Shown in pieces: positions 6,094-30,392 of a DNA stretch of 34,745 bases. The notes beneath the pieces were generated by a model. It saw only the letters and a program-made list of their open reading frames with translations. It ran no database searches and was not told where the DNA came from. Where the stretch lies: contig JADLGX010000239.1 of the NCBI GenBank assembly GCA_020849095.1, forward strand, positions 1 through 34,745, written 5' to 3'. How positions within the stretch are numbered: the first letter of the stretch is position 1; each line of letters starts with the position of its first letter. The position numbers and the translations under genes are program-made. This DNA comes from Candidatus Eiseniibacteriota bacterium (GTDB lineage: Bacteria > Eisenbacteria > RBG-16-71-46).

Positions 6094-7428
6094 ATGAAAT
6101 CCTTCCGATTCGTCATGCCCGCCCTCGCGCTCGCCGCGACGCTGCTGCTGACCGCCGCGCCCGTCTTCGCCGCCACCGGTGCGGTCGAATGGGTGCACGA
6201 CGACTACGCCAAGGCCGTCCGGATCGCCCGGGAGCGCAAGGTGCCGCTCTTCGTGGACATCTGGGCTCCCTGGTGCCACACCTGCCGCTCGATGTGGGCG
6301 TATGTCCTCAACGAGCCTTCGCTCTCGCGCCATGCCGGCCAGTTCGTGTTCCTGAGCGTGGACACCGAGAAGCCGGCCAACGCCTCGTTCCGTGGCCGGT
6401 TCCCGGCCGACGCGCTGCCCTCCTTCTACGTGATGGACCCCGTGGCCGAGCGCATCTCGGTCCGCTGGGTGGGCGGCATGACGATCGCGCAGTTGCACGC
6501 CCTGCTCGACGACGCCGCCATCGGCGGCCGCGCACCGCGAGCCCTCGTGCGCTCGATCGCCCGGGCCGACAGCCTCTACGCGGACAACCAGCACGCGGCG
6601 GCCGCCGCTGCTTTCGGTGAGGTCCTGGCCACCGCGCCGGAAGGCTGGCCGGGTTACTCCCGGGCGGTGGAGTCCCGCATGTACGCCCTGTCGCGGTCCG
6701 ACGGCTGGGCGGAGGGCGTGGCGCTCGCGCGCGCGGCGCTTCCCCGCCTCGGCCGCTCACCGTCCGCTCTCGTGGTCGCCTCGAGCGCCCTCGCGTGCGC
6801 GCGTGAGCTCCCGGCCGGCGACACGGGCAAGGCGGGAGCCGTCGCCGAATTCGAGGCGGCCACCCGGTCGCTCGTGAGCGACTTCAGCTTCTCCACCGCC
6901 GCGGACGACCGCTCCGGGGCGTGGATCGAAATCCTCACCACGCGCCAGGAGGCCGGGGACTCGGTCGGCGCCCGCGCCAGCGCGCGCGCCTGGTCGGAGT
7001 TTCTCGACGCCGAAGCCGCGAAGGCCGGCTCACCCGAGCAGCGGGCGGTCTTCGATCCGCACCGGCTGTCCGCCTACCTGGAACTCGGGGAGGCCGACCG
7101 CGCCGTTCCCATGCTCCAGCAGTCGGAGCGCGACCTGCCGGGCGACTACAACCCGAGCCAGCGGCTCGCAACCGCCTACAAGGCGCTCCGCAAGTGGGAC
7201 GAGGCGCTGGCCGCTTCGGACCGCGCCATGGCGCTGGCCTACGGGCCGCGCAAGATGCTGCTCTACACGACGCGCGCCGATATCTTCGCCGGCAAGCAGG
7301 ATCTCGCGGCGGAGCGCAGGACGGTCGAGGAGGGCATCGCGTTCGGCCAGGCGCTGCCGGAATCGCAGCGCCCCGCGCGCGCGCTGGAGGCCATGCGCAA
7401 GCGGCTGGAGAAGCTCGCTACTCCCTGA
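6094..7428 (+). CDS. Secreted thioredoxin-fold protein with C-terminal TPR-like region
   Basis: Signal peptide MKSFRFVMPALALAATLLLTAAPVFA; VPLFVDIWAPWCHTCRSMWAYVLN (WCHTC redox motif), DALPSFYVMDP; helical TPR-like repeats to the C-terminus. Start ATG 6094 rather than 5887. Confidence 0.88.
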   Translation: MKSFRFVMPALALAATLLLTAAPVFAATGAVEWVHDDYAKAVRIARERKVPLFVDIWAPWCHTCRSMWAYVLNEPSLSRHAGQFVFLSVDTEKPANASFRGRFPADALPSFYVMDPVAERISVRWVGGMTIAQLHALLDDAAIGGRAPRALVRSIARADSLYADNQHAAAAAAFGEVLATAPEGWPGYSRAVESRMYALSRSDGWAEGVALARAALPRLGRSPSALVVASSALACARELPAGDTGKAGAVAEFEAATRSLVSDFSFSTAADDRSGAWIEILTTRQEAGDSVGARASARAWSEFLDAEAAKAGSPEQRAVFDPHRLSAYLELGEADRAVPMLQQSERDLPGDYNPSQRLATAYKALRKWDEALAASDRAMALAYGPRKMLLYTTRADIFAGKQDLAAERRTVEEGIAFGQALPESQRPARALEAMRKRLEKLATP

Positions 7429-21005: not shown

Positions 21006-21035
21006 GCAATACCGCCCGCGCTCGGCGGCGGTCAA
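21006..21035 (-). promoter_or_regulatory. Candidate promoter for mutL-miaA overlapping the thrC stop codon
   Basis: Minus strand TTGACC - 18 nt - TATTGC; the TGA stop of thrC lies inside the -35. Confidence 0.4.
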
Positions 21036-22345
21036 GCGGGAGCGCGCTCTCCCTCTCCGGCGGCGGCCCCTTCGCGAAGGCGGGCGGCCAGCAGCGCCGC
21101 GTCGGCCGGCAGCGGTTCGGCGCGCACCGGACGCTCGAGCAGCGCCGCGAGCGAAGCGGGCAGCGGCACACGCACGCCGAGCAGGGGTTCGACCAGGTCG
21201 AGGAACTTGGCCGGATGCGCGGTGGCCAGATACAGCCCGCACTCGCCCGGGCGCAGCGCACGGTCCAGCACGCGCCAGGCGACGGCCGCGTGCGGCTCCA
21301 CGACGTGACCCCGAGCGTGCAGCGCACGCATCGCCTGCTCGGTTTCGTGGTCGTCGCACGAACCCCAGCGCAGCGCCGAGCGAAGCGGCGCGAGGTCCCC
21401 TCCGAAGAGATGGCGGACACGCTCCCAGTTGCTCGGCGCGCCCACGTCCATGGCGCTGCTGTGCGTCGCCACGCTCTCACGCGCGCGGTACTCGCCGCTC
21501 TCGAGGTGATCGGGCACCGTTCGGTTGGCGTTGGTGGCGGCCACGATTGCCTCCACGGGCAGCCCGAGCGCGCGCGCGTACAGGCCGGCGCAGAGGTTCC
21601 CGAAGTTCCCGCTCGGCACCGAGATCACGACCGGCCGTCCCGGCTGCGCCTCGCGCACGCGCGCGACGCCCTCGAAGTAGTACGGCACCTGCGCCAGCAG
21701 CCGCGCGATGTTGATGCTGTTCGCGCTCGTCAGCCCCAGGTCGGCCGCCAGCCGATCGTCGGCGAAGCAAGCGCGCACCATGCGCTGGCAATCGTCGAAT
21801 GAGCCGTCGACCGCGAAGGCGCGCGTGTTGCCCCCCAGACATGCCAGTTGGCGCTCCTGCAGAGGAGTGACCCGGCCGCGCGGATACAGCACCGCCACGC
21901 TCACGCCGGCGCGGCCCAGGAACGCGGCGGCCGCCGCCGCGCCCGTGTCGCCGCTCGTCGCCGTCAGGACGGTGCGCGGTCCCGTGGCCGAAGCGCTCAC
22001 GACGCGCGCCAGGAAGCGCGCGCCGAAATCCTTGAACGCCAGCGACGGCCCGTGGAAAAGCTCGAGCGCGTGCGTGCTTCCCTCCACCGCCGTGACCCGC
22101 ACGGGAAAATCGAACGCCTCGCGGACCAGCGCGTCGAGCGCGGAGCGCTCCCACTCGTCGCCGAGCAAACGGCACAGGATCTCGCAGGAACGCTCGGCCC
22201 ACGGCAGGTCGAGCAGCGCCGGCACGTCGTCCCAGCGCGGCAGTGATGCGGGCACCCAGAGCCCGCCGTCGGCCGGGGCGTGCCCGAGCGCCGCGGCGGC
22301 GAAGGTCGTGGTGTGGCGCGCGTCGCGCGTGCTGACGAGTCTCAT
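21032..22345 (-). CDS. thrC: Threonine synthase
   Basis: [36 protein letters not shown]...FHGPSLAFKDFGARFLARV...VLTATSGDTGAAAAAAFLG...ANSINIARLLAQVPYYFEG...VPSGNFGNLCAGLYARALGLP. Confidence 0.96.
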   Translation of the reverse strand: MRLVSTRDARHTTTFAAAALGHAPADGGLWVPASLPRWDDVPALLDLPWAERSCEILCRLLGDEWERSALDALVREAFDFPVRVTAVEGSTHALELFHGPSLAFKDFGARFLARVVSASATGPRTVLTATSGDTGAAAAAAFLGRAGVSVAVLYPRGRVTPLQERQLACLGGNTRAFAVDGSFDDCQRMVRACFADDRLAADLGLTSANSINIARLLAQVPYYFEGVARVREAQPGRPVVISVPSGNFGNLCAGLYARALGLPVEAIVAATNANRTVPDHLESGEYRARESVATHSSAMDVGAPSNWERVRHLFGGDLAPLRSALRWGSCDDHETEQAMRALHARGHVVEPHAAVAWRVLDRALRPGECGLYLATAHPAKFLDLVEPLLGVRVPLPASLAALLERPVRAEPLPADAALLAARLREGAAAGEGERAPA

Positions 22346-23277
22346 GCGTCCTCGGTCAGGCGCGCGCCGCGCCGGTCGAGCACGCATTCGCGCACTTCCG
22401 CCGCGATGCCCGCCTCGCTCCACGCCCTCGTCATGGCCTCGCCCACGCCGGCCGAATCGCCCGCCGGGGCCAGCGCGAGCATCGCGGGGCCCGCGCCCGA
22501 AAAGCTGCATCCCCACGCGCCGGCTTCCCCTGCCGCGCGCTGGACCGCCGCGAACCCCGGCACCAGCGCCGCGCGATGCGGCTCCGCGATGCCGTCCACG
22601 AGCGCGCCGCGAAAACGCTCGCGATCGCCCGAATGCAGCGCATGCACGAGCGTGGCCAGCCGCTGCGCGTGAAGCAGCGCATCGGGCAGCGAAAGCGCGG
22701 CGGGCAGCACCGCCCGCGCCGCCCGCGTCTCCAGCAGCAGCGCGGGGCTGGCGATCACGAACCGCAGCTCGTCGAAGAACGGCAGCGCCGTCGCGCTCCC
22801 GTCCGCGTGCACCAAGCGCAGGCCGCCGAGCAGGGCCGGCGCCACGTTGTCCAGGTGAAGCGCGCCGGATGCGTCGCTCTCGGCATCGCCCGCGGCGGCC
22901 AGCAGCACGTCGTCGGACAGCGACAGGCCCAGCGCGCCGTCGAGCGCGCGCAGCAGGGCCACGATGCTCGCGCTGCTCGAGCCCACCCCGCTACCCACGG
23001 GCAGCCCCTTGGTGAGCCGCACCCGGAACGCCGGCAGTTCGACACGCGCGCGCCTCGCCAGCGCGTCGGCCGCGCGCCACACCAGGTTCTCCGTGCCCGC
23101 CGGCAGCTGGTGCGCGAACGGTCCGTCGCAATCGAGCGAGCGCGCCGCGGCGGGCGTGAGTTCGACGAAGTCGCCCCAGCGCTCGCCGCTGACCGGGGCC
23201 AGCGCCGCCCCGAGTGTGTCGAACCCGGCGATGACGTTGCCGCAGCTGGCCGGGCCGAACGCGCGCGCGGGGATCAC
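22342..23277 (-). CDS. thrB: Homoserine kinase (GHMP family)
   Basis: [23 protein letters not shown]...[29 protein letters not shown]...[11 protein letters not shown]...[17 protein letters not shown] start overlaps thrA stop; 3' end overlaps thrC start (ATGA). Confidence 0.95.
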
Positions 23278-25757
23278 GGCTGCCCCCACGGCACGAGCCG
23301 CATGACGTCGGCCAGCACTCCGGCCGCCGTCACCTCGGCGCCCGCCCCGTAGCCGCGCACGACCAGCGGCCGCGGGCTGTAGGCCGCGCTCGTGATGCTG
23401 ATGGCGTTCTCGCCGCCCCGAACCGCGGCGAGCGGGTGCGTCGCGTCCACCGCCACGGGCCCCACCGCGCACCGCCCTCCCTCGACGAGCGCGACGAAGC
23501 GCAGCACTTCCCCCGCGGCGGCGAGGGCGGCGACACGCGCGGCCACCTCGGCGTCGGCCGACGGCAGCCTGGCGAGGAACTCTTCGACCGTGCCGCTCGC
23601 GTCGAACAAAGGGGGCAATAGCCCCTCCAGCGCGACATCGGACAGCTCGAGCGGAGCGCCCAGCTCGCGCGCGAGCACCAGCGCCTTGCGCGCCACGTCG
23701 AGTCCGCTCAGGTCCACGCGCGGATCGGGCTCGGTGTACCCGGCTTCGCGCGCGCGGGCCACCGCCTCGCTCAGCGGAACCCCGTCCTGCAGGAGGCCGA
23801 GGACGTACGAAAGCGTGCCGCTCAGGACCCCCTCGATACGGATCACCTCGTCGCCGCCGGCCAGCAGGTCATGAAGCGGACCGATCACCGGCAGGCCCGC
23901 TCCCACGTTCGTCTCGTAGTGGAACCGCCTGCGACGGAGACGCAGCCGCTCGCGCAGGTCGCGATATCGCGGCAGCGGCCCGCTGTTGAGCAGCTTGCTT
24001 GCGCTCACCACGTGCATGCCGGAATCCACGAAATCGCCGTAACGCTGCGCGAGGGAGTCGGCGCTGGTGCAGTCCACGAGCACGGGAGTCGGCGGACGGC
24101 GTTTGCGCACGTCCGTGAGAAGGGACTCGGGATCGAACGGTGGCGCGCCCTCGAGCGCCGCCATCGCATCCCGGGGCACGAGGCTGCGCGGCGCGATGCG
24201 GCAGCGGCGCGAATCCGCGACGGCGCACAGCCTCAGGTCCACGCCGCGCTCGCGCCAGCGCTCCGCCGAGCGTTCCAACTGTGCGAGGAACTGCCGGCCC
24301 ACCAGACCGACGCCGACGAGGTACACGTCCACACGCTGCGCCGTGTCGAAGAAGCGCGCGTGCACGGCAGGCAGGGCGCGCACCCCCTCCTCCTCGGTGA
24401 CGACGGCCGAGATGGATCGCTCGCTGGAACCCTGCGCGATCGCGACCACGTTGCAACCCAGGTCGCCGAGCGCGCCGAAGAGCGCGGCCGCCACGCCCGG
24501 GCGGTGGCGCATGCCGTCGCCCACGAGGCTGAGGACGGCCAGCCCGGCGAGCGGCTCGACCGATTCGACGAGCGAAAGCGCTCGCTCGCGCGCGAACTCG
24601 TCGTCCAGGGCGCGAACGGCTTCGTCGCGGTCGGCGGTGCGGATGCCCAGCGAGATGGCGCACTCGCTCGAGGCCTGCGTGATCAGTAGCACGTTGATGC
24701 CGCACCGCGCCAGCGACGAGAAGACGCGGGCCGCGACTCCGGGAAGGCCGGGCATGCCCGGGCCGCTCAGCGTCAGCAGCGTGACGTCGCGAAGCAGCGT
24801 GAGTCCGCGCGCCAGGTGCGGGCTGGCGGGCGCGTGCCCGGTGATGAGCGTGCCCTCGCCGTCCGGAGCGAACGTGTTGCGCACGCGGACGGGAATGCCG
24901 GGATCGCGCACCGGGGCGAGCGTGCGCGGGTGCAGCACCTTGGCGCCGAAATGCGCCAGCTCCATGGTCTCGTCGTAGCTCAACGCGCTCAGCCGCATCG
25001 CGTCCGGCACGAGCCGGGGATCGGCGGTGAAGACGCCGTCCACGTCGGTCCAGATCTCGAGCAGCGCCGCCTCGACTGCCGCCGCGGCGAGCGCGGCCGA
25101 AAGATCCGACCCGCCGCGCCCGAGCAGCGCGATCCGCCCGCTCTCGTCCCCGCCGTAGAATCCGGGCAAGAGCGCGAGATCGCGCCCCGAGCGCTTCCAC
25201 TCCGAGAACCGCTCGCGCAGGGCGCCGGGCAGCGCGGTCGCTTCGAGCAGGGATCCCGTGCACGGGATGTATTCGCACGGATCCAGATCGTCGTGTTCCA
25301 GGCCGCGCTTCTGCAGGATGTGGGAAAGCAGCGCGCAGGAGGCGCGCTCGCCCGCCGAGGCGATCCTCGCGTGGGTCTGGGGCGGGCACACCCCGAGCGC
25401 GCGCACCCCGGCCAGCAGCCGGCCCACTTCGTCGCCGAGCCCCTCGAGCAGCGAGCGCATCGCCTGCGTCGGGAAGCCGTCCGCCATCCCGATCTGGTCG
25501 AACATCAGCAGGTGCCAGCGGCCGAACGCATCCGCTGCTCTGTCGTCTTCCCCCTTCACCGCCGCGGAGATGCCGTCCAGGAGCCGGTTCGTGACTCCCT
25601 CCATCGCGCTCGCCACGACGATCACGCGCGACTCGGCCAGCGCCTCCTCGATCAGGCCGGCGACCGCGGTCATGCGCTCGGTGGAGCCCACCGAAGTGCC
25701 GCCGAACTTCATGACGCGAACGGGACGGCGGGCGTCGCGCTTGCGCTGCGTCGTCAT
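23274..25757 (-). CDS. thrA: Bifunctional aspartokinase / homoserine dehydrogenase
   Basis: [29 protein letters not shown]...[41 protein letters not shown]...ACT regions...[17 protein letters not shown]...[36 protein letters not shown]...[47 protein letters not shown] 6 nt before ATG 25757. Confidence 0.97.
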
Positions 25758-25772
25758 GGAGCGCTCCGATCG

Positions 25773-25806
25773 AAAAACGAGAGGCCCCGCCGGTTCGGCG
25801 GGGCCT
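25773..25806 (-). terminator. Rho-independent terminator/attenuator in the thrA leader
   Basis: Minus strand AGGCCCCGCCG-AAC-CGGCGGGGCCT (perfect 11-bp stem) CTCG TTTTT; T5 tract ends 15 nt before thrA ATG and lies between promoter and gene. Confidence 0.88.
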
Positions 25807-25837
25807 GCGAAGGATGAAGCGGGGAATCGCGCAGGCG

Positions 25838-25909
25838 CTATGCCGGACCGCAACCGGACGAGAAGTCCGGCGTCGTCGTGAGCGTGCGCGTCGACCCGAG
25901 TGCGTTCAT
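25838..25909 (-). CDS. Candidate threonine-rich leader peptide of the thrABC attenuator (thrL-like)
   Basis: ATG AAC GCA CTC GGG TCG ACG CGC ACG CTC ACG ACG ACG CCG GAC TTC TCG TCC GGT TGC GGT CCG GCA TAG = [23 protein letters not shown]. Five Thr in residues 7-13, upstream of a terminator preceding thrA. Not in the ORF track (too short). Confidence 0.85.
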
Positions 25910-25915
25910 GCGGAA

Positions 25916-25945
25916 ACCGTACGCCGCCGCACGAACGGCCGTCAA
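25916..25945 (-). promoter_or_regulatory. Candidate sigma-70 promoter for the thr leader/operon
   Basis: Minus strand TTGACG - 18 nt - TACGGT in the 44-nt gap between the upstream gene's stop (25954) and the leader ATG (25909). Confidence 0.6.
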
Positions 25946-25953
25946 CGATTCGT

Positions 25954-27285
25954 TCACGGCACGATCCAATCGTGGGCCGCGGCGAGGAACGCCTCAGCGT
26001 CCTCCGGGCCGGCCATGGTGACGCAATGGTCCACGATCGCGGGTGCGGGCGTGCCGTCCGCCTGCTCGCGCCACGCCTCGTCCCACAGCGTCAGCAGACG
26101 GCGGCGCAGGTGGGTGAAGCCGTCGGGCGAACCGGCCGTGAGCAGCAGGATGCTGAGCGGTTGCGTCTGGGAAAGACAGTCCGTGTCGCGGACCTGCGGC
26201 GGCAGCGCGGCGCACAGCTTCTGCACGGCGGCCGGGCAGTCCGGGAAGTCGATGCGATGGAGTTCGAACCGCATCCGGTCGTGCCGGTTGCGCTCGAGCG
26301 CCAGCTCGAGGCGCTTGCGGAACTCGGAGGCGGGCAGCCATCCGGTCTCGCGCAGCGGGGTGTAGGGGAATGACGTGCCGGCGCGTTCGCGGTCCTCCTC
26401 GTCCCAGGTGGAACGCAGGTCCTCGACCATGCTCTGCCACTGCCCCATCCCCTGCTCGGGATCGATCGCGGCCACGGCGAGCACGCCGCGGCGCTGAGTC
26501 GTGCGGAACGGCCAGGCGCCCCAGGTGCGGCCCTTGCCGGGTTCCGACAGCCGGGTGACCACCTGCGGAGTGCCCAGCTCGCTGGCGAGGTCCACGAGCC
26601 CGCGCAGCAGCTTGTCCTCGGGACCCACCTGGGCGACCAGCTGCAGCGGCCCGGTGTCGCCCGCGTGGAGTTCGGCCGTGCCGGCGCCCGAGGTGCCCAC
26701 GAGATCCTTGAGCGCGGCTTCGAGCCGGGCGCGGGATTCGACCGAGGGAAAATCGTCGAGCGACGTGACGCGCCAGTGCGGTTCGGAGGGCTCCGGCACG
26801 GGCGCCATGGCCACGGGCGCGTCGGCGCCGAGGTCGGGCAGCGCGTGCTCGAGCAGCGCGTCGTAGTCGGTGCCGCCCAGCGTGTGCTCGAGCGTCGCGG
26901 CGTGCAGCGCCAGCGGAGCCTCGATCGCCGGGGAATCCTCCTCGTGCTCCGCCGTGCCGCGCATGAACTCCTGCGGCGTCTGGGTGGGCGTGCCGAGCGC
27001 CAGCAGCAGGCTCTCCAGCTGGGTGCGCCGGGAGCTGCGTTCGCCGACGATCGCGAGGTCGAAGATCTCGCGCGTCAGGTCGGCCAGGTCGAGCGTGCGC
27101 GGAATGCCGCACAGCTCGGCCACCCGGACTCCCGGGTCGTGGACGCGCTCACCGGCCACCAGCCGCACCGAGACTCCGGGGCGCTTCAGCAGCTCGGGCA
27201 GAAGGTCCGCGTCCTGCCAGTCGAAGTCGATCAGGACGACTCGACGAGGCATCTCGTGCGCGTGCTCCGTGGTATGGGTCGCCAT
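25954..27285 (-). CDS. Uncharacterised protein: N-terminal Rossmann-like segment, C-terminal degenerate GGDEF/GAF-like region
   Basis: [81 protein letters not shown]...; C-term [30 protein letters not shown]...[21 protein letters not shown] resembles the GGDEF scaffold but has no GGDEF motif. Confidence 0.7.
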
Positions 27286-27370
27286 GCTCGGGGGTGGGAA
27301 AGGGTGGGTATCGAGGGCTCGACCCCTACCATCGGCACCCCGGCCCGCCGACGTGAGTCCGACTTCTCGG

Positions 27371-27403
27371 TCGAAGGGCGGCCTCGGAACGGCCGCCCTT
27401 CGA
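27371..27403 (-). terminator. Terminator-like hairpin downstream of the SurA/PpiD-type PPIase gene
   Basis: Perfect 13-bp stem tcgaagggcggcc-tcggaac-ggccgcccttcga; no T tract on the minus strand, so intrinsic termination is uncertain. Confidence 0.5.
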
Positions 27404-27410
27404 CCGCGCC

Positions 27411-30392
27411 CTAAGGGGTCTGGCTTTCCGTGGGCGGGCTGACCAGCTGCATCTCCCGCATGCGCGACTCCAGGATTCGGACGGGGAAGCGCTTCTGCAG
27501 CTCCTCGAAATAGCCCCGCATGCCCTGCTCGGTCTCGGCCGCGAGCAGGTTCCGCACGCGTTCCGTCAACTGCTGGGGCGAAGGATCCTTGCGCTCCACC
27601 ATCCGGAACCGGGTGATGCCGTTCGGAAGGGAGAGCCACGGCGAGACCGAACCCACCGCGAGACCGGGGTGCCCGGTGGTGCCGAACGCCACCGAGTCGA
27701 AGATCGCCGCCCCGCCCATGCCGGTGATGCCCTTGCCGCCCGCGATGTCGCGCGCGCGCTCCACCCCGCCCCAGAGGGCCGCGAGGCTGTCGAAAGACCA
27801 GCCGGCCATCCCGAGCGAATCCATCTCCGCCCGCTTGGCCTGCAGGGCGCGTTCCCCGGCTCCGCGCCGGTAGGTTTCCGCGGCCAGCGTGCGGACGTCT
27901 TCCCACTTGGGCGACGCGGGATCCGAGATGCTGTCCACCCAGGCGATCCAGTACCCCTGTCCCTTGGCCTTGAACGGCTCGGTGATGAGCTGGCCGGGCT
28001 TGAGCTTCTCGAGCGACAGGTAGAACGGGCGGAACAGCGCCGAGGGAAGGTTGGTGCCGATCTTGTAATCCTGCTGGGTCACGGCGTAGCCGTACTTCTC
28101 GGCGATGCGCCGCATCTGCGCCGGCGTGCGCGCCGCGCGCATCATGCTGTCGGCGGTCACCGCCGCCATGCGCTCACCCTTGGCGAGCGCGGCATCCGAG
28201 GAAACGGTCGCGTAGATCCAGACGAGCGGCTGGATCACGGCCGGCTCGTGCTCGGTGACCTGGATCACGTGATAGCCCAGCTCGGTGCGAACGGGCTCCG
28301 GGGCCATCTCACCGGCCGGAAGCGCGAAGGCCGCGCGCTCGAAGTCGGCGAGCATGGTGTTGCGCCCGAAGACGCCCAGATCGCCGCCCACGTCCTTGGT
28401 GGAGACGTCGCTGCTGAACTCCTTCGCCAGCGCGGAGAAGCTCTCCCCCGCGCGGATGCGCTCGATGAGGCGGCGGGCGAGGGCCAGGGCCTCGGCTTCT
28501 CCCCCCGGCGTTTCGGTGGCGGGTTGTAGCAGGATGTGCCGGGCGCGGATGAGCTCCGGCGCGCTGTACTTGTCGATGTTCTCGCGGTGGTGCCGCTCGA
28601 CTTCGGCGCGAGTCAGCGGAATGCTCAACAGCGGCGGCGGCGGCACGGTGAACGTCGAGAACGAGATCACGTCGCCGCGGCTGAACTGCCGCGGGTTCTC
28701 GTCGAACATGCGCCGGGCGCCTTCGAGATCGGTCAGGTCGCGGCGCAGCTTGACCGCCTGGGCGACGGCCGAGCGCGCCTGGGCGAACGTCGGGGTCACG
28801 CGTTCGACCTTGCCGGCGACCTGCCAGACGACCCAGTTGCCGCGGAGCGCGAACAGTCCGCCGCGCGGCTCGGTCCGGGCCCAGATCGTGTCGGCGAGCA
28901 CGCTGCCCTCGAGCGTCGAATCGAAGTCCGCGCCGCGCGGAGCCGCCGCCTCGCGGATCGAGGCCAGCGCCTCGTACCGGGCGTCCTTCTTGCCGGCCGA
29001 CCAGGCGCGCTGCACCGCGTCGGCGCCGAGCCTCGCGGTGCGCGAGCGCTCGTCGCGCATGAAGCGCATGCGCACGTCGGCGCGCACCTCGTCGAGCGGC
29101 TTCGCGGTGATGGAACCCGTGGCCGCGTCGAAGCCGGAATAGTCGGCGAGATGCCCGCGGTAGTAGCGATCGAGGTCGGCCGCCGTCGGCTCGGGCGCGG
29201 GGATCTTCGCGGTGTCGAACACCGCGTAGCGCACGCGCAGGCCGGGGGCGCTCAGCGAATCCCGCAACGAGGCGAACAGGGCGCGCTGCTCGTACTCGTC
29301 GGCGTGCGCCTTGCGGTCGCGGCGCAGGACACCGCGAATCTGGCGCGCGACCTCGCTCAGCGGCGCCACGTGCGCCGGGTTCGCCTGGTCCACACGCACG
29401 AGCATCCACCCCTCTTCACCCTGCACGGCTTCGGGCAGGACCTTGCCCGCCATGGCCGGATCGAACAGCCGGCGTTCCTGCGCCGGCGTGCCGCGCCAGT
29501 AGCCGGGGAAGTTGTCGGACTGGACCACGATGCCGGGCCGCGGGCTGAGGAACGCCGCCGCCTTTCCGAAGTCCTCACCGGCGGCGATCACGGCGAGCAC
29601 GCTGTCCGCGACCACCTTCATGCGCCGGTTCCACTCTTCCGCACGGCCCGGAATGCGGCGCACGGAATCGCTCAGCCCCGGCGTGTTCACGAACACCACG
29701 GTGAGGCTCGAACGGTCCGGGCGCGAGAAATCCTCGGCGTGCGCGCGGTAGTAGGCGATCACGTCGCTTTCGCGCGGTTCGGCGTAGCTGCCGTCGAACT
29801 CGGGGCGATGGAGCGACAGATGGTCCACGGTCACGCGGGAGAGCGCCCGCTGGGCGGCGAGCCGGGTCGGCCCTTCGGCCGGCGCGAAGCGCGCGATCAC
29901 CCGGTCGTTCAGCTTGCGCCCCGCGAGCTGACTCTGGATGGTGGCCAGGGCGGCGTCGTAGGACGCCTTCTGCGTCGTCTTCACCGCCACGAAGCGGTTC
30001 TGGTCGAACTGCCCGCCCGGGTTGAAGAACGCGTCGCGCTTGAGAACGTCTTCCGCTTCGGCAGCGGTCGCGGTGATGCCCTGTCGCTTCGCCTCCAGCG
30101 TCAGGAGTTCGAGCCGGATGAGGCTCTCGAGCACCTGGCGGCGGAGCAGGTCGCGCATCTCGGGCGGCGTTTCGGCGTTGCCGCTGCGGCGCGAGAACTC
30201 GGCGATGGCGAGCGTGGCGCGCCGGTCCAGTTCGGAGCGGGGAATGCTGCGCCCACCCACCGTGGCCGCGGACGGGCCGGTGACCGGAGCGGCGGGTTTC
30301 GCGGGCGCCGCCCCCTGCTGGGCCAGGGCCAAAGCCGCCTGCGTGGCGCACACGACGATCACGATCAGCGAAACGATTCGACGGACATTCAC
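27411..30392 (-). CDS. Long SurA/PpiD-type parvulin peptidyl-prolyl isomerase (about 993 aa), exported
   Basis: Signal peptide VNVRRIVSLIVIVVCATQAALALAQ; SurA_N-like ATVGGRSIPRSELDRRATLAIAEF; canonical parvulin core IRARHILLQPATETPGGEAEALALARRLIERIRAGESFSALAKEFSSDVSTKDVGGDLGVFGRNTMLADFERAAFALPAGEMAPEPVRTELGYHVIQVTEHE. GTG start 30392 inferred. Confidence 0.88.
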   Translation of the reverse strand: MNVRRIVSLIVIVVCATQAALALAQQGAAPAKPAAPVTGPSAATVGGRSIPRSELDRRATLAIAEFSRRSGNAETPPEMRDLLRRQVLESLIRLELLTLEAKRQGITATAAEAEDVLKRDAFFNPGGQFDQNRFVAVKTTQKASYDAALATIQSQLAGRKLNDRVIARFAPAEGPTRLAAQRALSRVTVDHLSLHRPEFDGSYAEPRESDVIAYYRAHAEDFSRPDRSSLTVVFVNTPGLSDSVRRIPGRAEEWNRRMKVVADSVLAVIAAGEDFGKAAAFLSPRPGIVVQSDNFPGYWRGTPAQERRLFDPAMAGKVLPEAVQGEEGWMLVRVDQANPAHVAPLSEVARQIRGVLRRDRKAHADEYEQRALFASLRDSLSAPGLRVRYAVFDTAKIPAPEPTAADLDRYYRGHLADYSGFDAATGSITAKPLDEVRADVRMRFMRDERSRTARLGADAVQRAWSAGKKDARYEALASIREAAAPRGADFDSTLEGSVLADTIWARTEPRGGLFALRGNWVVWQVAGKVERVTPTFAQARSAVAQAVKLRRDLTDLEGARRMFDENPRQFSRGDVISFSTFTVPPPPLLSIPLTRAEVERHHRENIDKYSAPELIRARHILLQPATETPGGEAEALALARRLIERIRAGESFSALAKEFSSDVSTKDVGGDLGVFGRNTMLADFERAAFALPAGEMAPEPVRTELGYHVIQVTEHEPAVIQPLVWIYATVSSDAALAKGERMAAVTADSMMRAARTPAQMRRIAEKYGYAVTQQDYKIGTNLPSALFRPFYLSLEKLKPGQLITEPFKAKGQGYWIAWVDSISDPASPKWEDVRTLAAETYRRGAGERALQAKRAEMDSLGMAGWSFDSLAALWGGVERARDIAGGKGITGMGGAAIFDSVAFGTTGHPGLAVGSVSPWLSLPNGITRFRMVERKDPSPQQLTERVRNLLAAETEQGMRGYFEELQKRFPVRILESRMREMQLVSPPTESQTP

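Follow-up and report, generated by a model that had tools for sequence, protein, structure and literature searches.

The thrABC operon in the window (the whole 34,745-nt stretch of DNA analysed here, one contig of a 629-contig genome bin) is very probably controlled by a ribosome-mediated transcription attenuator that would sense threonine through a leader peptide, itself probably encoded on a leaderless mRNA, and the unit as a whole appears to have been acquired laterally. The positions of the features on which this reading is based are collected in Table 1. From 25909 to 25838 on the minus strand the leader reads ATG AAC GCA CTC GGG TCG ACG CGC ACG CTC ACG ACG ACG CCG GAC TTC TCG TCC GGT TGC GGT CCG GCA TAG, so that the original prediction, a 23-codon minus-strand ORF with five ACG threonine codons, a TAG stop and a terminator ahead of thrA, is exact on direct reading. 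ACG threonine codons make up 5 of the 23 leader codons; threonine accounts for 4.5% of the codons of the window's genes, and about half of its codons are ACG. When the 196-nt region was shuffled 20,000 times with its dinucleotides preserved, no ATG-started ORF with five threonines in seven codons arose; in the window as a whole, both strands included, the leader is the only ORF of this threonine density, where 0.05 would be expected. An attenuator calls for a short ORF in which codons for the end product of the operon cluster; the leader is such an ORF (five threonines in seven codons), and it is conserved. The original prediction added that the leader may sense threonyl-tRNA alone, which fits the window, where it has no Ile codon, but Ile codons occur in 21 of 26 related leaders.

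Table 1. Positions of the features of the thr control region and operon in the window.
Feature	Position	Strand	Basis or remark
-35 box TTGACG (candidate leader promoter)	25940..25945	-	TTGAC box at matching place in nearly all relatives
-10 box TACGGT	25916..25921	-	consensus; spacer 18; ends 6 nt before leader ATG
Leader ORF	25838..25909	-	23 codons + TAG stop, read directly
Control region	25871..25891	-	Thr codons 7, 9, 11, 12, 13, all ACG; read directly
Possible 1:2 hairpin GCCGGAC-ttctc-GTCCGGT	25853..25871	-	folding; directly after Thr run
Segment 2, CCGGTTgCGG (antiterminator 5' strand)	25848..25857	-	folding; in last leader codons
Inner antiterminator helix, 5' strand GCCTGCG	25830..25836	-	folding
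Antiterminator 3' strand, CGCAGGC (25809-25803) + CCGAACCGG (25798-25790)	25790..25809	-	folding; overlaps terminator
Intrinsic terminator, AGGCCCCGCCG-aac-CGGCGGGGCCT, then CTCGTTTTT	25773..25806	-	terminator scan, folding
thrA, bifunctional aspartokinase/homoserine dehydrogenase I	23274..25757	-	NF006959, 910.7 bits (cut-off 726)
thrB, homoserine kinase (open frame)	22342..23472	-	TIGR00191, 210 bits; family match from residue 70-74
thrC, threonine synthase (open frame)	21032..22516	-	TIGR00260, 275 bits
Probable acquired unit (promoter, leader, terminator, thrABC)	21033..25953	-	flanked by 650-aa gene and mutL, direct neighbours in relatives

Between the leader and the first structural gene lies an intrinsic terminator, as it does in all leader-bearing relatives. 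In the window its stem (25806-25782) comprises 11 pairs closed by a 3-nt loop, with TTTTT at 25777-25773. When segment 1 was masked, folding of the window gave a competing structure in which CCGGTTgCGG pairs with CCGAACCGG and GCCTGCG with CGCAGGC, amounting to -27.2 kcal/mol before the 3' arm of the terminator is complete. In each of the 21 sequences folded, the 5' arm of the terminator was able to pair with the last part of the leader ORF, with a gain over shuffles that averaged a z of -2.1 (window, -2.3); the antiterminator signal of the window taken alone was modest (p 0.023). Segment 2 of the window paired with its own arm at -12.0 kcal/mol, compared with -1.4 to -8.5 kcal/mol for 14 foreign arms. 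Column covariation was uninformative as a test of the antiterminator, the GCCCCGC arm being invariant among relatives. Because the terminator arm pairs with the leader end, the conserved RGA or RGT ending of many leader peptides probably reflects a constraint on nucleotides.

The effect of a ribosome on these pairings was modelled by occlusion, with a footprint of 30 nt, for seven leaders (the window, UBA706, L034, L042, L062, G162 and G411). For the window, the modelled probability of the antiterminator was 0.80 when the ribosome was placed on the Thr codons, as opposed to 0.12-0.54 when it stood anywhere from codon 19 to the stop. The UBA706 and L034 leaders behaved in the same way, and for L042 the probability dropped to 0.48 at the stop only. 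In the remaining three of the seven a ribosome near the stop reduced it only modestly, so that the exposure by stalling of an antiterminator that excludes the terminator, found in silico, is weaker there. No clear or strong 1:2 pre-emptor hairpin was seen in the folding, and the possible one listed in Table 1 lowered antiterminator formation only weakly. Since no strong 1:2 hairpin was seen, the ribosome itself is the likelier switch.

Taken together, the conserved threonine-rich ORF and the antiterminator/terminator switch, as it appears on paper, favor the threonine-sensing attenuation leader that had been proposed. RNA polymerase would start at or beside the leader AUG, and a ribosome would load straight onto the 5' end of the mRNA and trail the polymerase. 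With charged tRNA-Thr scarce, the ribosome would stall in the ACG run at codons 7-13, leaving CCGGTTgCGG free to pair with CCGAACCGG, supported by GCCTGCG:CGCAGGC; this pairing would block the terminator and allow thrABC to be read. With threonine plentiful, the ribosome would reach the TAG and cover CCGGTTgCGG, upon which the terminator AGGCCCCGCCG:CGGCGGGGCCT would form and transcription would stop.

The start proposed here follows from the placement of the promoter, which in the window has the layout TTGACG-18-TACGGT-ttccgc-ATG. Promoter calls were consensus-based, and the best promoter was searched for without regard to the ATG in 26 leaders. In 22 or 23 of them the -10 box lies 6-8 nt before an in-frame ATG, a placement that would put transcription initiation at the leader start codon in the window (6 nt) and its relatives alike, while shuffles yield such an ATG in 0.1-2.5% of cases per sequence. 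In L047 a first ATG lies 1 nt after the -10 box and a second at 7; the promoter of L033 (TTGCGG-17-TACACT-6) agrees on inspection, and those of G418 and the truncated G372 show the same spacing by eye. As this gap of 6-8 nt between the end of the -10 box and the leader ATG recurs in nearly all cases, the leader mRNA of the window and of its relatives is probably leaderless, beginning at or beside the AUG. It is unlikely that the threonine attenuator instead has its leader on a conventional mRNA that carries a 5' untranslated region, beginning further upstream, for instance at the TTG at 25969, or being transcribed from a promoter farther away. The frame is indeed open upstream to that TTG, and the -10 box TACGGT is weak, matching at 3 of 6 positions, which is why a stricter promoter scan of the window reported no leader promoter. 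However, that TTG falls within the last part of the gene before the operon, no Shine-Dalgarno-like stretch precedes the leader ATG in the window (TTCGTGCGGCGGCGTACGGTTTCCGC-ATG), and the 6-8 nt spacing recurs in divergent leaders.

We scanned the named genomes with the window ThrA and obtained 47 loci, mostly from Holophagaceae/Geothrix (Acidobacteriota), with some from Myxococcota, Treponema and Vibrio. A threonine-rich ORF that ends about 25 nt before a terminator with the GCCCCGC stem was found upstream of thrA in all 34 Holophagae-type loci. Their leaders diverge in sequence and mix ACC, ACT and ACG codons for threonine, as in ...MTTTNGTITHPVQRGA of Geothrix fermentans and MKSFPEISTTTTTTTRDRRAGPS of UBA706, so the check on related thrA loci proposed with the original prediction found the ORF kept at this place despite divergence. 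Threonine-rich leaders were absent from the thrA loci of Myxococcota, Treponema and Riflebacteria, apart from one TTG-started frame (L076) that overlaps the start of thrA and looks spurious, and from 19 ThrA loci of other types in Acidobacteriota. A covariance model built on the leader region (R1) matched in 26 of 396 Acidobacteriota genomes and found four more, divergent leaders before thrA (G411, G418, G372 and G162). Among the 47 genomes of the host's own phylum it matched only the window itself and, weakly, an ordinary terminator; in 189 Myxococcota genomes it gave no match, which shows little, as there was no positive control there. Four weak matches (L115, L118, L120 and L122) were rejected as leaders, being ordinary terminators with no leader for a biosynthetic gene. 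These data bear on a simpler explanation, a constitutive intergenic terminator accompanied by a chance or relic threonine-rich ORF. A terminator at this place would also insulate the operon from the upstream gene, but we consider this explanation very improbable: the ORF is retained in 38 loci overall despite divergence, the antiterminator pairing occurs in every folded sequence, and in relatives the upstream gene and mutL are neighbours with this terminator missing between them.

The thr genes lie on one strand in the order thrA-thrB-thrC, followed by mutL, miaA and der. Upstream of the operon is a 650-aa frame (25954-27906, minus strand) whose C-terminal two thirds are conserved in relatives and which matched no NCBIfam or Pfam family. 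Mis-binning of the contig was rejected, the window MutL being 87% identical to that of a same-genus genome (87, 79, 79 and 75% for four such genomes) and the flanking gene order being the same. Same-genus relatives that have no thrABC carry the flanking genes side by side, at about 60-87% identity; in G001-G004 and G012 the 650-aa gene stands directly beside mutL (about 110 nt apart in G001). Because the mutL-side spacer is shared, the stretch from about 25953 to 21033, with promoter, leader and thrABC, has the look of a single insertion. In G005, a genome of the same family, mutL and the 650-aa gene are separated by a different stretch of about 6.7 kb (L084, 7830-14480), in which one frame reaches up to 1490 aa; another insert seems to have entered at this junction. 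The host family's own aspartokinase/homoserine dehydrogenase genes were rejected as leader carriers, as no threonine-rich ORF lies upstream of them.

In a ThrA tree the window groups with UBA706 and bog_363, leader-bearing MAGs labelled Holophagaceae, with 100/100 support. The UBA706 protein (L073) was entered as aligned pieces, its whole frame having distorted the tree: at about 6561-6570 of that locus thrA changes reading frame, because of either a frameshift or a fault in the assembly. The host does not belong to the Acidobacteriota: among the genomes compared its phylum is represented by 47, all of one class, as opposed to more than 396 for the phylum of Geothrix. The control region and thrABC would thus appear to have been taken up together from a lineage near the Holophagae-type Acidobacteriota, the direction being read from one locus and a long branch. 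Had thrABC instead been native to the host lineage and lost by its relatives, the attenuator reading would be unaffected. This history is unlikely: the direction of transfer is an inference and the ThrA end branch of the window is long (0.91), but no relative of the window ThrC was found genome-wide in six other genomes of the host family or in the one order-level genome tested, the flanking genes are directly adjacent in five tested genomes, and ThrA is nested with the Holophagaceae-labelled MAGs. Both the leaderless start and the lateral acquisition of the operon go beyond the original prediction.

The Rfam model of the gammaproteobacterial leader (RF00506, Thr_leader; gathering score 55 bits) did not list the window even at an E-value of 10, and it gave no gathering match in nine Holophagae-type loci and none over the cut-off in 396 Acidobacteriota genomes. 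The positive controls, Vibrio (L079, 69.1 bits) and E. coli, were detected. The window leader accordingly falls outside this family, and the covariance search suggested with the original prediction misses it while catching Vibrio. It resembles gammaproteobacterial ThrL in having a short threonine-rich leader ORF, a terminator, a thrABC operon with fused aspartokinase-homoserine dehydrogenase I and the same proposed logic, but differs in being probably leaderless and in having no clear 1:2 pre-emptor and no Ile codon. Judged from sequence and folding models, the leader would work like ThrL, and RNA homology between the two is not demonstrable. Of the alternatives originally posed, a convergent or a more widespread leader, our data favor a leader that is widespread in Holophagae-type Acidobacteriota and came with the operon, leaving its kinship to the gammaproteobacterial leader beyond demonstration.

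Leaderless attenuator leaders have been described for Sinorhizobium meliloti trpL, where the 5' end of the transcript is the leader AUG (PMC7298713), for trpL, ilvL, leuL and a thrS-linked thrL of Streptomyces lividans (PMC8079986), and, as cited in PMC13236596, for mycobacterial polycysteine ORFs (Canestrari 2020). The principle is therefore not new. The present leader shares with these an amino-acid-related peptide and an attenuated transcript with its 5' end, here predicted, at the leader AUG, but the known examples belong to Alphaproteobacteria and Actinobacteria and to other operons. In particular, S. lividans thrL precedes thrS and has two Thr codons only and no clear terminator (PMC8079986), unlike the window leader. 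As far as the searched literature shows, leaderless attenuation is new for thrABC and in the Holophagae-type lineage. A genome scan by Naville and Gautheret in 2010 predicted attenuators in Acidobacteria, assigning a function to almost none and leaving thrA unmentioned (PMC2965389); our candidate is likewise a predicted acidobacterial attenuator but comes with a proposed function. We found no earlier report of an acidobacterial thr leader in the literature searched; Lopatovskaya 2010 (PMID 20198868) lay outside its scope, so such a report is possible.

The leaders described here would assign a specific role to attenuators of a phylum in which hardly any has had one, and would extend threonine attenuation beyond the gammaproteobacterial Rfam family. 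They supply some 40 natural versions of a probably leaderless leader with which to test stalling in the absence of a 5' untranslated region, and an apparent case of a regulated operon that moved from one phylum to another with its sensor still in place. Leaders similar in layout, with few threonines, lie upstream of thrA at three loci (L144, L145 and L152, about 1200-1480 of the oriented locus). They carry Ile-rich stretches (SIMINGTHPARG, SIIISGTHPARG and GTIMMIGTRPARG), a peptide end GTHPARG or GTRPARG and a CCCCGCG terminator, as though isoleucine had taken the place of threonine in the control codons. More tentatively, and leaning slightly against it ourselves, we raise the idea that the Holophagae-type Acidobacteriota have a native, distinct two-state thr attenuator, which would start at the AUG, adopt the antiterminator by default when free of ribosomes (there being no pre-emptor) and terminate only with a ribosome at the stop; such a module might cross phyla with its operon and change its control codons, as in the Ile-rich leaders. 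Finally, an acidobacterium carries a His-rich leader, MAFTRSHLHHVHHHRHAAGERSSG, and a terminator before a hisG-like gene (L117 / L127; G325:C203, about 61150-61300). Its promoter, TTGACA / TAGTCT, ends 9 nt before the ATG, and the locus would therefore represent a his attenuator whose start is nearly leaderless.
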